Origin: an uncultured Tenacibaculum sp.
GTDB taxonomy: Bacteria; Bacteroidota; Bacteroidia; Flavobacteriales; Flavobacteriaceae
NCBI RefSeq assembly: GCF_947504135.1
Contig: NZ_CANNGG010000004.1
Coordinates: 186,001 to 250,000 of the forward strand
Length of the DNA: 64,000 bases
Reading direction: 5' to 3'
In this document: in pieces, positions 58,662 through 63,015 of the stretch
Position numbering within the stretch: the stretch's first letter is position 1
How the letters are laid out: each line of letters opens with the position of its first letter
Translations under genes and position numbers: made by a program
Notes under the pieces: generated by a model
What the model was told of the DNA's origin: nothing
Databases searched by the model: none
The model's input: only the letters and a program-made list of their open reading frames with translations

Positions 58662-59549
58662 TTATTTGGTAACGGTAATTGGAATACTATCTTGAGAACC
58701 GTATAACTTGATCTCAGTAATATCGGCTGGCATATTTAATCCGTTTTTAATAATTACGTTTTTTACACTTTTAATAACATCACTTTTTATTTCTAAAGTA
58801 CCACGTTTGTATTCTTTAGTTTTTGTCCAAAAAATTACCTTTAAATTAACGGTACTAACACCTAAACTATCAACCGTAACAAAACATTGATGTTCATCGG
58901 TATTTATTACTCCTTTTGTGCTAATTACTGCATCAATAATTACTTTTTTTGCAGTATCAATATCGTCATCATAATCAATACCAACAACAAAATCTGAACG
59001 ATAAAATCCGTCTTCAGTATAGTTATAAACTGGTTTTTTTACAATGTCACTATTCGGAATATATACATCTCTTCCATCGAAGGTTTTTAGTTTACTAAAT
59101 CGAAACTCCATCATCTTTACTTTTCCAAAAATATCTCCGATTTTAACTGTATCATTTACATTGAAAGGTCTGTTAAAAGATAAAATAACACCTGAAATAA
59201 AATTTTCTCCAACATCTTTAAAAGCAAAACCTAAAATAACAGCTGATGCACCTGCTGCTGTTAATAAACCGGTTGCTATACTACCTAATCCTGCTATTTT
59301 TAACCCCAACATTAAAACCAGAGTAATTAACCCTATTTTAATAGTTTTACTTAAAAAATTTGTCATTAAAGGATCATGAGTTTTTTTAGATATCGTTTTT
59401 CTAAAAAGCGATGAAATAAAATTTGCTAACAAAATACCTAAAGCAATTATAATTATTGCGATTATAATACCGGGTATTTGAGACACAAACTCATTCCAAT
59501 ACTCTTCAGTTGCTGTTTTGATTTTATTTATAGTGTTATTAAAGTTCAT
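58662..59549 (-). CDS. Small-conductance mechanosensitive channel (MscS family)
   Basis: 295 aa; GFAFKDVGENFISGVILSFNRPFNVNDTVKIGD. Confidence 0.93.
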   Translation of the reverse strand: MNFNNTINKIKTATEEYWNEFVSQIPGIIIAIIIIALGILLANFISSLFRKTISKKTHDPLMTNFLSKTIKIGLITLVLMLGLKIAGLGSIATGLLTAAGASAVILGFAFKDVGENFISGVILSFNRPFNVNDTVKIGDIFGKVKMMEFRFSKLKTFDGRDVYIPNSDIVKKPVYNYTEDGFYRSDFVVGIDYDDDIDTAKKVIIDAVISTKGVINTDEHQCFVTVDSLGVSTVNLKVIFWTKTKEYKRGTLEIKSDVIKSVKNVIIKNGLNMPADITEIKLYGSQDSIPITVTK

Positions 59550-59602: not shown

Positions 59603-60103
59603 TTACATTACCAAGTCTTCTTTTAACTGTTCTACGGTACTTTTGCTCCAAGCGTTCAACATCCAACTTGTTTTTTCTAAAGAAGCAATATATCCTCCCA
59701 TTAAATCTATCGTTCCCTCATCTTCTGCTTCTTCCGCTTTTTTTATCACATTTGCCATTTGCTTTAATAATGTTTTATGATCATCTAATAAAATATAAAT
59801 CATATCACTATCTGTTTGAAAAGGACTTTCTTCTGATATATTTGCTATCTTTAAATACTTACTATATCTACTAATTGGATGATACTGTAAAGTTAAAATA
59901 CGTTCTGCGATCTCATCTATTTTAACTCTAGCATCACTATACATTTCTTCAAATTTTTCATGTAGTTCAAAAAAGTTTTTCCCCACAATATTCCAATGAA
60001 AATTTCTTAACTTTTGATAGTATATGTGATATTCAGCCAATAATTGGTTTAATTCTTTTGCTACTGGTAATACTTTTTCTGTTTGTATGTTTAAATAATT
60101 CAT
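59603..60103 (-). CDS. dps: Dps family ferritin-like DNA-binding protein
   Basis: LLAEYHIYYQKLRNFHWNIVGKNFFELHEKFEEMYSDARVKIDEIAERIL. Confidence 0.92.
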   Translation of the reverse strand: MNYLNIQTEKVLPVAKELNQLLAEYHIYYQKLRNFHWNIVGKNFFELHEKFEEMYSDARVKIDEIAERILTLQYHPISRYSKYLKIANISEESPFQTDSDMIYILLDDHKTLLKQMANVIKKAEEAEDEGTIDLMGGYIASLEKTSWMLNAWSKSTVEQLKEDLVM

Positions 60104-60139: not shown

Positions 60140-60202
60140 TACAAAATTAATTTATATATACAGTGTTGTTTTGCTCTATCAATTTTGATGTTTGCTCATT
60201 TC
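60140..60202 (-). promoter_or_regulatory. dps promoter with paired direct repeats and TAATTTTGTA core
   Basis: Minus strand GAAATGAGCAAAC, then TGATAGAGCAAAA 21 bp on, then 25 nt, then TAATTTTGTA (60149-60140). Confidence 0.65.
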
Positions 60203-60224
60203 AAAAAATTAAAAAGAATTGTAT

Positions 60225-60257
60225 AAAAAAAGAGATGAATTAATTCACCTCTTTTTG
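60225..60257 (-). terminator. Terminator after 60277..60825
   Basis: aaaagagatgaattaattcacctctttt-type hairpin with flanking A/T tracts. Confidence 0.55.
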
Positions 60258-60276
60258 TTTATCGATTTCTTAAATA

Positions 60277-60825
60277 TTACATTTTAACTGTTTCGAAAAT
60301 TGCATATTCAAGCTTGTTAGTTTCTTTATTTCTATACTCAATAATAAAATCACCGTATTTATTAAAGTATCCTACTCCGTTAAACTCATCACCTTGTACT
60401 ACATAAAAATCGTTATTAATCGATCTATAAGCTCTGGCTGAAGTAACGTCTTCGTTATTAACTTTGCGGGTAATTAATAAATCTTTTTGATCAATTAAAA
60501 AACCATATTGTTTACCTTTATATTTAAAGTAATTTACTTTAGTTTTTGAATCGTAAAATGGATCTTTATCGTTATCAACCATAATTGTTTTTTCAACTGC
60601 AACAGGTGTTTCGATTACACCTTGATTCAACTGGTGTTTTTGTTTAGAGTCAAACTTTACTTTTTTCTCTTTTGTGGTTACAACTTTTACTTTGGTATCG
60701 TAAGTTTCACCTTTTTCGTTAACTTTTTTAGCTTTTTTAACCTCTGTGGTTTTGATTACTTCTGTTTGTGCGTTTACCGTCATAATACCTGCGATAAACA
60801 ATAAACCTACTATTAAATTTTTCAT
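60277..60825 (-). CDS. Secreted hypothetical protein
   Basis: 182 aa; signal peptide MKNLIVGLLFIAGIMTVNAQ. Confidence 0.75.
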   Translation of the reverse strand: MKNLIVGLLFIAGIMTVNAQTEVIKTTEVKKAKKVNEKGETYDTKVKVVTTKEKKVKFDSKQKHQLNQGVIETPVAVEKTIMVDNDKDPFYDSKTKVNYFKYKGKQYGFLIDQKDLLITRKVNNEDVTSARAYRSINNDFYVVQGDEFNGVGYFNKYGDFIIEYRNKETNKLEYAIFETVKM

Positions 60826-60946
60826 TTTTACTATGTTTAAATTAAAATTATAAGTAGCTTGTTTTTAAGATGTCTACTTTTTAACATCTGATATATTTTA
60901 AATCTCTATTCTTTTTTATGACTTTGAACTTAGGTTATTTGTCTTG

Positions 60947-61010
60947 TACAAAATTAGCTGAGATATATTAAGTTATTTAGCTCATTTAATTTTTGTTTTT
61001 TGTTCATTTC
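60947..61010 (-). promoter_or_regulatory. Promoter with paired direct repeats and TAATTTTGTA core, upstream of 60277..60825
   Basis: Minus strand GAAATGAACAAAA, then TAAATGAGCTAAA 22 bp on, then 25 nt, then TAATTTTGTA (60956-60947). Confidence 0.65.
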
Positions 61011-61136
61011 ATAATATAGAGGGTATTTTTCGTGTTTTAAATCAATTTTATGCAAACATATATGAGATACATTTAAAATATGTAAATAAAATTCGTGCTT
61101 GCATAATTTTGAGTTTGCTTAGCTGTTAAGGTTTGA

Positions 61137-61298
61137 TTATACTCTTTTTTTACCTGTAAGTAATGATATTACAAATAGTATTAAGAAAATAAAGAATGCG
61201 ATTTTAGCAAATCCTGTAGCTGCTCCTGCAATTCCACCAAAACCTAAGATTCCAGCAATAATTGCGATAATAATAAATGTGATTGTCCAACGTAACAT
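61137..61298 (-). CDS. DUF1328 (YtjA-like) membrane miniprotein, 53 aa, missing from the ORF track
   Basis: Minus strand [53 protein letters not shown]. Confidence 0.92.
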
Positions 61299-61344
61299 AA
61301 TTTTAGTTTTTAGGTTAATAATTTGAAGTACATCTTTTGTACAC

Positions 61345-61407
61345 TACAAAATTATAACCGATTAAGAGTCTTCTTTTACTCATTTGATAAGAATGTTAAC
61401 TCATTTG
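61345..61407 (-). promoter_or_regulatory. DUF1328 promoter with paired direct repeats and TAATTTTGTA core
   Basis: Minus strand CAAATGAGTTAAC, then CAAATGAGTAAAA 21 bp on, then 25 nt, then TAATTTTGTA (61354-61345). Confidence 0.7.
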
Positions 61408-61416
61408 AAAACAAGG

Positions 61417-61478
61417 AAATGAGCTAAAGTTTATTTCTTTTGAACAAACTTTACCTGGGTTCTTCATGTAAATTTGTA
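61417..61478 (+). promoter_or_regulatory. SRAP-like gene promoter with paired direct repeats and TAAATTTGTA core
   Basis: GAAATGAGCTAAA, then CTTTTGAACAAAC 21 bp on, then 25 nt, then TAAATTTGTA (61469-61478). Confidence 0.65.
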
Positions 61479-61547: not shown

Positions 61548-62177
61548 ATGAGTTATAAGCTATCTAACATAGCAAGTAAAGAAAGAATTAAAGATTTTAC
61601 TAAACTTAATTTTAAGTATCCGCATTTACATAAACCGAGGCGTAAGATTAATGGATTGAAAGAGCAGACAGTAAACATAATCACTATGGATAATCCATTA
61701 GAAATCACCCAAGGAATATGGGGAATGCTACCTCAGAATTACGCTGATAATTGGAATAAGTTTCAGCAAATAAAGCGTACGTTACACGTTAGAAGGGAAG
61801 AGATTAAGAAGAGTATTTTATTTAAAGAAGCATTGCTTTTTAGACGATGTTTGTTAATTGTTACTGGGTTTTACGCCCATAAAGTAATTGATGGCAGTAT
61901 TGAAAATTATTTAGTAGAAAAAGATAAACGAGAGCCTTTTTATTTAGCTGGGGTTTATAATACCACAGAAGACGGTTTTGTTACTTGCTCAGTAATCAAT
62001 ACAAATACAACAGAAGAATTAAATTCATTTAATAATCTGTATGAAATAATGCCACTTCAAATACCAAGAACCTTTAAAAAGATGTGGTTAGATCGTTCTA
62101 CCGATATGAGTGATGTAGAGTATTTAATTAACAATCCGTACGACGCTAAATACAATATTCAGAAGATAATAACTTGA
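61548..62177 (+). CDS. SRAP (SOS response-associated peptidase/HMCES)-like protein, probably catalytically degenerate
   Basis: NPLEITQGIWGMLPQNYADNW, RRCLLIVTGFYAHK, PFYLAGVYNT; fold pattern kept but active-site residues changed. Confidence 0.75.
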   Translation: MSYKLSNIASKERIKDFTKLNFKYPHLHKPRRKINGLKEQTVNIITMDNPLEITQGIWGMLPQNYADNWNKFQQIKRTLHVRREEIKKSILFKEALLFRRCLLIVTGFYAHKVIDGSIENYLVEKDKREPFYLAGVYNTTEDGFVTCSVINTNTTEELNSFNNLYEIMPLQIPRTFKKMWLDRSTDMSDVEYLINNPYDAKYNIQKIIT

Positions 62178-62217: not shown

Positions 62218-63015
62218 TTATTTTGCAAATTTATCTTCGATGTATTTTTTAGCTGTTTCGTAAATAGCGTCTACCTCTTTAATATTGAATCCGCTAAACT
62301 CTCCTAACGGATAACAAATAGTTGCATAGGTGCTAAAAAACTTGTATTCTTCGGATGATAACATCAACAATTTAGAGGTATGTGCCAATACTTTAATTGT
62401 TGTGTTTAACTCTTTATTTTCTTTTGCTGAAGGAAAAACTACATAGCTTCCAATAACTGGGTACTCTGAGTTTTCAAAAGGTGTAGTAGGAAAATTATCA
62501 ATAATACCTCCATCAGAATATAACATGTCATCTATTTTTATAGGGTTGAACAGTCCAGGTACTGCACATGAAGCCAATACAGGTTTTAACAGTTCTCCTT
62601 CATAAAAATATTGTGTAGCACATTTATTCAAATTGGTGGTCGATACCGTTAAAGGAATTTCTAATTCTTCAAAAGTTGACTTTATTTTATCTTGAATTAG
62701 CCTAGCATAATTATACGAATTGAAGATTCCGGGTTTAGCAATTGTAATCCACGAATATTGAAAAATTTCAGTAGTCCTAAAAAAATTTAATATTTCTTGA
62801 GGTTTGATACCCGATGCATACATAGATCCTACTAACGAACCAGAACTGCAGGCAGATATAGCGTTGATTTTAATATGTAATTCTTCTAACTTTTCTAGTA
62901 ATGCTACGTGAGCTACTCCTTTTTCTGCACCTCCGCTAAGCACTAAATTTATAGGGGTTTTAGGGTCTAAATCTTTTAATTTTTCAATAGAACACCCATA
63001 CTTTTCTTTTATCAT
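62218..63015 (-). CDS. Patatin-like phospholipase
   Basis: LVLSGGAEKGVAHVALLEKL, ACSSGSLVG (Ser nucleophile), SDGGIIDNFP. Confidence 0.88.
   Translation of the reverse strand: MIKEKYGCSIEKLKDLDPKTPINLVLSGGAEKGVAHVALLEKLEELHIKINAISACSSGSLVGSMYASGIKPQEILNFFRTTEIFQYSWITIAKPGIFNSYNYARLIQDKIKSTFEELEIPLTVSTTNLNKCATQYFYEGELLKPVLASCAVPGLFNPIKIDDMLYSDGGIIDNFPTTPFENSEYPVIGSYVVFPSAKENKELNTTIKVLAHTSKLLMLSSEEYKFFSTYATICYPLGEFSGFNIKEVDAIYETAKKYIEDKFAK

Follow-up and report, generated by a model that had tools for sequence, protein, structure and literature searches.

A strictly spaced tandem promoter element in Tenacibaculum and its proposed AraC-family regulator

What controls a group of neighbouring promoters that share one arrangement of direct repeats and core? 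The question is raised by a 64,000-nucleotide stretch from an uncultured Tenacibaculum (the window, G000:C4:186001-250000, in a genome of 2.62 Mb), where an earlier note had described such an arrangement before dps and three nearby genes. Comparison of sequences across relatives leads us to propose, with a probability of roughly 0.8, that the element serves as operator-promoter for a regulon run by an adjacent AraC-family protein (63034-64074, minus strand).

Promoter elements and genes of the cluster

The direct repeats and cores that the earlier note had read at four promoters are all present in the sequence:

60140..60202, minus strand: site 1, dps promoter (far half-site 60190-60202, near half-site 60169-60181, core TAATTTTGTA 60140-60149)
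60947..61010, minus strand: site 2, promoter of a 182-aa secreted protein (far 60998-61010, near 60976-60988, core 60947-60956)
61345..61407, minus strand: site 3, DUF1328 promoter (far 61395-61407, near 61374-61386, core 61345-61354)
61416..61478, plus strand: site 4, SRAP promoter (far 61416-61428, near 61437-61449, core TAAATTTGTA 61469-61478)

Each element is 63/64 bp long and carries direct half-sites of the TGAGNNAA type. Scoring with half-site and core matrices reproduced both the spacings given in the note, 21, 22, 21 and 21 bp for sites 1 to 4 (22 bp at site 2 only), and the fixed distance to the core, which in all four sites starts 32 nt from the start of the near 13-mer, equal to the hexamer plus 25 nt. 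The elements had been called identical, which is true of their architecture but not of their letters: the near half-sites differ (dps GATAGAGCAAAA versus SRAP TTTTGAACAAAC), and one core, that of SRAP, reads TAAATTTGTA. At site 1, 36 bp separate the core from the ATG of dps. The back-to-back sites 3 and 4 are 8 bp apart and form a bidirectional SRAP/DUF1328 promoter with four half-sites (61345-61478); similar back-to-back pairs are found in loci L045, L046, L048 and L049.

Because the pattern had been spotted after the fact, an out-of-sample position weight matrix was used, built from 16 sites of group-B Tenacibaculum (defined below) and other genera, with none from the genome itself or its close group. 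The four sites take ranks 1 to 4 in the 64-kb window, scoring 38.9, 27.2, 23.4 and 23.1; the next-best place reaches 17.0, and in 100 shuffled windows the top score was 17.5 and the mean best 9.4. A mere chance likeness among AT-rich promoters might be suspected from the base composition of the genome (31% GC) and from the way the pattern was picked, but this idea is already refuted by the ranking of the four sites above all shuffled windows, by a fifth site and by recurrence across genera, and we give it practically no weight.

The genes around the elements are as follows:

58662..59549, minus strand: MscS-type mechanosensitive channel gene, 53 bp downstream of dps on the same strand
59603..60103, minus strand: dps (Ferritin PF00210, Dps-type, 166 aa), target of site 1
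60277..60825, minus strand: gene for a 182-aa signal-peptide protein, target of site 2
61137..61298, minus strand: DUF1328 small membrane protein (53 aa), target of site 3
61548..62177, plus strand: SRAP/HMCES-like protein gene (PF02586), target of site 4
62218..63015, minus strand: patatin-like phospholipase gene, 18 bp downstream of the regulator gene
63034..64074, minus strand: AraC-family regulator gene (346 aa), with its start codon at 64074, past the window end (locus L014 3034-4074)

The MscS-type gene probably belongs to the dps operon, and in some relatives MscS-like genes are preceded by a site of their own (L249, L256, L259). The 182-aa protein has no match in Pfam or NCBIfam, and its homologues carry the site in relatives. 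DUF1328 is a target in most regulator-carrying Tenacibaculum loci. The patatin-like phospholipase gene is probably co-transcribed with the regulator gene, which links it to the system by association alone.

A pattern search of the genome found a fifth site at G000:C4:250148-250206 (plus strand), 148 bp beyond the window end, between the divergent AraC-family gene and an operon encoding a 157-aa outer-membrane-type protein, a DUF3185-like 66-aa protein and a DUF2383/PA2169 four-helix protein. Few places in the whole genome match, and they are well separated from noise: a model of 38 sites returns nine at E<4e-4, followed by a gap up to 0.0115. These nine are the five of the cluster and four unlinked sites:

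C2:106803, minus strand: before a YtxH / holin-like / DUF6327-like operon
C5:118409, minus strand: before an outer-membrane beta-barrel protein gene
C3:162127, minus strand: before genes for an ArsC-like protein and a lipoprotein
C2:105071, plus strand: before a glyoxalase-fold protein gene

The four-site cluster of the earlier note is therefore real but incomplete, since the note had missed the fifth site, the four unlinked ones and the neighbouring AraC-family gene. A catalase-peroxidase-like gene (732 aa; L190 8979-11177, G000:C2) lies just upstream of the site-bearing YtxH operon.

The protein encoded next to the cluster has at its C-terminus a domain typical of the AraC/XylS family, some 100 aa long and with two helix-turn-helix motifs. 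This domain matches PF12833 (E 5e-22) and PF00165 (E 3e-12), both past the cut-off, and in a structure model its fold matches AraC-type DNA-binding domains (3w6v, TM 0.90). The N-terminal half has no Pfam match and is beta-rich in the model, at uneven confidence. Over its full length the protein matches known folds weakly, at a TM of about 0.3-0.4, with a low TM to ToxT/Rns; it contains no LytTR domain.

Recurrence of the element with the regulator

Orthologs of the regulator are found in 24 of 71 other Tenacibaculum genomes at 49-82% identity, comprising six at 71-82% (group A) and 18 at 49-53% (group B). The same register (21-bp spacing, core at 32 nt) recurs at 24 sites in seven group-A loci, our own included, and at 38 sites in 18 group-B loci; these counts are not independent, because the matrices were iterated on the same loci. 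Block-shuffled sequence of the Tenacibaculum regulator loci yielded no element in this register. The half-site has drifted alongside the regulator, reading AAATGAGCAAA in group A and TATTTGAGTTAA in group B, and the regulator clusters of the two groups have few genes in common beyond the regulator, DUF1328 and DUF2383. One group-B cluster includes a bacterial topoisomerase IB gene (L060 10235-11338).

In Tenacibaculum, the genes downstream of sites encode DUF1328, Dps, DUF2383, YtxH, hemerythrin-like, SRAP, outer-membrane and secreted proteins. Near orthologous regulators, the element occurs in the same register in Lutibacter, Kordia, Cellulophaga, Maribacter and Aquimarina as well as in Tenacibaculum, and in these five other genera it stands before genes for Dps, DUF2383, YtxH, outer-membrane, SRAP, DUF1328 and secreted proteins. 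Conservation in orthologous promoters, on which the earlier idea of a regulon depended, is thus borne out by the same kinds of genes in Tenacibaculum and beyond. Croceivirga has a single weak site near its regulator ortholog, and around that of Ulvibacterium (L130) no site was found.

Many of the relatives' loci had been chosen via the regulator gene. For an unbiased count, exact half-sites TGAG[CT][ACT]AA alone were sought in four sets of loci, leaving core and spacing free. This gave 33 pairs at 21 bp and at most 1-2 per set at every other spacing from 8 to 60, and in 32 of the 33 pairs TAnnTTTG follows exactly 28 nt after the near TGAG; shuffled sequences gave close to zero. The fixed register claimed for four promoters therefore extends well past them. 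The consensus of the 13-bp half-site is approximately [TGC]A[AT][AT]TGAG[CT]NAA.

Two further scans were not tied to the choice of loci. Model R1, made from group-A sites only and run on 119 genomes, had its best match at E<=1e-3 in all 24 regulator-carrying Tenacibaculum (24/24) and in 5 of 47 others (Fisher 2e-14, ancestry ignored). Among the exceptions is G027, in which a comparable cluster of sites surrounds an AraC-family protein only 28% identical to the regulator of the window (L195 17077-18090). Another, the 88% complete metagenome-assembled genome G043, has a YtxH/hemerythrin/DUF2383/DUF1328 cluster with intact sites (L194, C220); no close regulator ortholog was found in it, and the regulator gene is absent from its usual place. 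G035 has one weak site, at DUF2383, without a close regulator ortholog, and the matches in G066 and G007 were rejected, as they proved on reading to be partial and without the architecture. Model R2, whose training set includes some sites from other genera, was applied to 200 genera of the family. At E<=1e-4 it found 15 of the 24 genera with a regulator at >=45% identity and 2 of 176 others, again with ancestry ignored; 25 of 33 strong R2 matches lie within 10 kb of a regulator gene, and nine of the 24 regulator-carrying genera have no strong match. For the genome under study, R1/R2 matches above E ~0.01 were counted as noise, and C1:59437 (R1 E 0.002) was discarded because it overlies a start codon and R2 gives only 0.115.

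An AraC paralog of 32-37% identity was also considered as a second user of the sites and rejected, with no sites within 20-kb regions around it in G035, G061, G009, G041 and G023. In our genome, a site lies about 6 kb from the 32-37%-identical paralog, and G190 and G236 have sites near 36%-identical AraC paralogs.

The dps genes allow a comparison within genomes. Tenacibaculum has two paralogs, dps1 (59-77% identical to the dps of the window) and dps2 (about 45%); among the genomes tested, dps1 is present in 20 of 20 with the regulator and in 2 of 24 lacking it, while dps2 occurs in both kinds. With a matrix trained without any dps site, the element was found 19-33 bp before the ATG in 18 of 18 group-B dps1 genes, all unlinked to the regulator, whereas seven dps2 genes from the same group-B genomes had no element upstream; nor had the dps1 genes of the regulator-less G005 and G011. 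For dps1 of G034 and G050, the closest site lies some 650-680 bp upstream and probably serves an intervening gene. The presence of dps1 with the operator and dps2 without it in the same genomes provides a ready-made control.

Proposed mode of action and alternatives

In Flavobacterium psychrophilum, the sigma-A box TAnnTTTG maps at -12 to -5 (PMC9723704). The core of the elements is an ordinary box of this type, present at a fixed distance in all four window promoters, which agrees with its earlier assignment to the Bacteroidetes -7 box. With the box at -12 to -5, the near half-site spans roughly -44 to -32, and the far half-site roughly -65 to -53. A -33 TTG, sought at 17-23 nt from the box, is missing from all 38 sites, but the half-site itself fills that place, so the lack is partly forced. 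Direct half-sites separated by about two helical turns (33 pairs at 21 bp), of which the near one overlies -35/-33 at a fixed distance from the core (32 of 33), make up the layout of an AraC-type class II operator. The note's reading of two same-face half-sites, the near one over -33, as class II-type activation is favoured by this comparative evidence of conservation and fixed register.

In the mechanism we propose, a dimer of the regulator would bind both half-sites on one face of the DNA, and the near half-site would stand in for the missing -33 TTG box. The protein bound there may contact RNA polymerase in a class II-type activation comparable to that at araI1/araI2. The beta-rich N-terminal domain would probably sense a signal of stress or stationary phase, which would then turn on the targets: Dps, DUF2383 and hemerythrin-like proteins for DNA and iron protection, SRAP for the handling of DNA lesions, and YtxH-holin-DUF6327, DUF1328, MscS and outer-membrane proteins for envelope and osmotic functions. 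It is from this gene content that we infer stress or stationary-phase control.

Could the same sites be used in another way, or by another protein? Some AraC-family proteins act as repressors, and a near half-site overlapping the -33 region might block polymerase until a signal arrives. We consider this unlikely, since a near half-site at -44 to -32, with -33 TTG in 0 of 38 sites, is the activation layout of araI1/araI2, and the fixed distance to the core suggests contact with polymerase. LytTR-type response regulators bind direct repeats about two turns apart, so the 21-22 bp repeats would suit them too, and the genome encodes 11 such proteins; the AraC gene would then merely be adjacent. However, none of the 11 LytTR genes is in the cluster, the nearest on the same contig being about 37 kb off, none is conspicuous in the gene lists of the inspected regulator clusters, and site presence tracks the AraC gene in two surveys, which makes a LytTR binder very unlikely. 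The strict register among all elements might also be expected of an extended promoter of an alternative sigma factor, with the far elements as sigma determinants. This seems highly improbable, as the core matches the usual sigma-A box TAnnTTTG (PMC9723704), a tandem duplicate at 21 bp that extends to -65 is not a sigma-factor element, and the distribution follows an AraC gene. The adjacent gene (63034-64074) thus remains the proposed activator of the regulon, as judged from sequence.

Relation to known regulons and significance

The regulation itself is of a known type, the AraC-family operator-promoter. At araI, the direct repeats are likewise spaced by 21 bp and overlap -35. E. coli AraC binds two adjacent half-sites at araBAD, the promoter-proximal one of which recruits RNA polymerase (PMC4760080). 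The system described here shares the AraC-family DNA-binding domain and the two adjacent half-sites, but differs in an unrelated half-site sequence, in the Bacteroidota sigma-A core TAnnTTTG and in having many target promoters instead of one operon. Within the AraC/XylS family, SoxS/MarA/RamA and ToxT/Rns each control several dispersed promoters through single or variably arranged boxes. They resemble our candidate in the dispersed targets and include the solved structures nearest to it, but the strict tandem pair in fixed register is particular to the present sites, and the full-length fold match is weak. The sigma-B regulon of Bacillus and the RpoS regulon of E. coli comprise Dps, YtxH and small membrane proteins under an alternative sigma factor; the kinds of genes overlap with those found here, where an AraC-type activator would instead act at sigma-A-type promoters.

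Flavobacteriaceae are not known to have RpoS or sigma-B, and little is understood of how their protective genes, dps among them, are turned on. The F. psychrophilum promoter map, from the same family and with the same -7 box TAnnTTTG, defined sigma-factor motifs, and its main text makes no mention of AraC, Dps or YtxH (PMC9723704). Literature searches found no earlier description, so a regulon of protective genes under an AraC-family protein is apparently undescribed.

Taken further, the sequence comparisons make it somewhat more probable than even that much of the Flavobacteriaceae has a regulon of the general-stress type under an AraC-family activator rather than an alternative sigma factor, controlled via a strictly spaced tandem operator that drifts with its regulator (AAATGAGCAAA versus TATTTGAGTTAA in the two ortholog groups). 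This joint drift of half-site and regulator is well suited to studies of operator/regulator co-evolution. For culturable strains, the result names one candidate regulator and offers an exactly defined operator, predicted start sites and a list of targets, from which the control of protective genes in this family may be approached.
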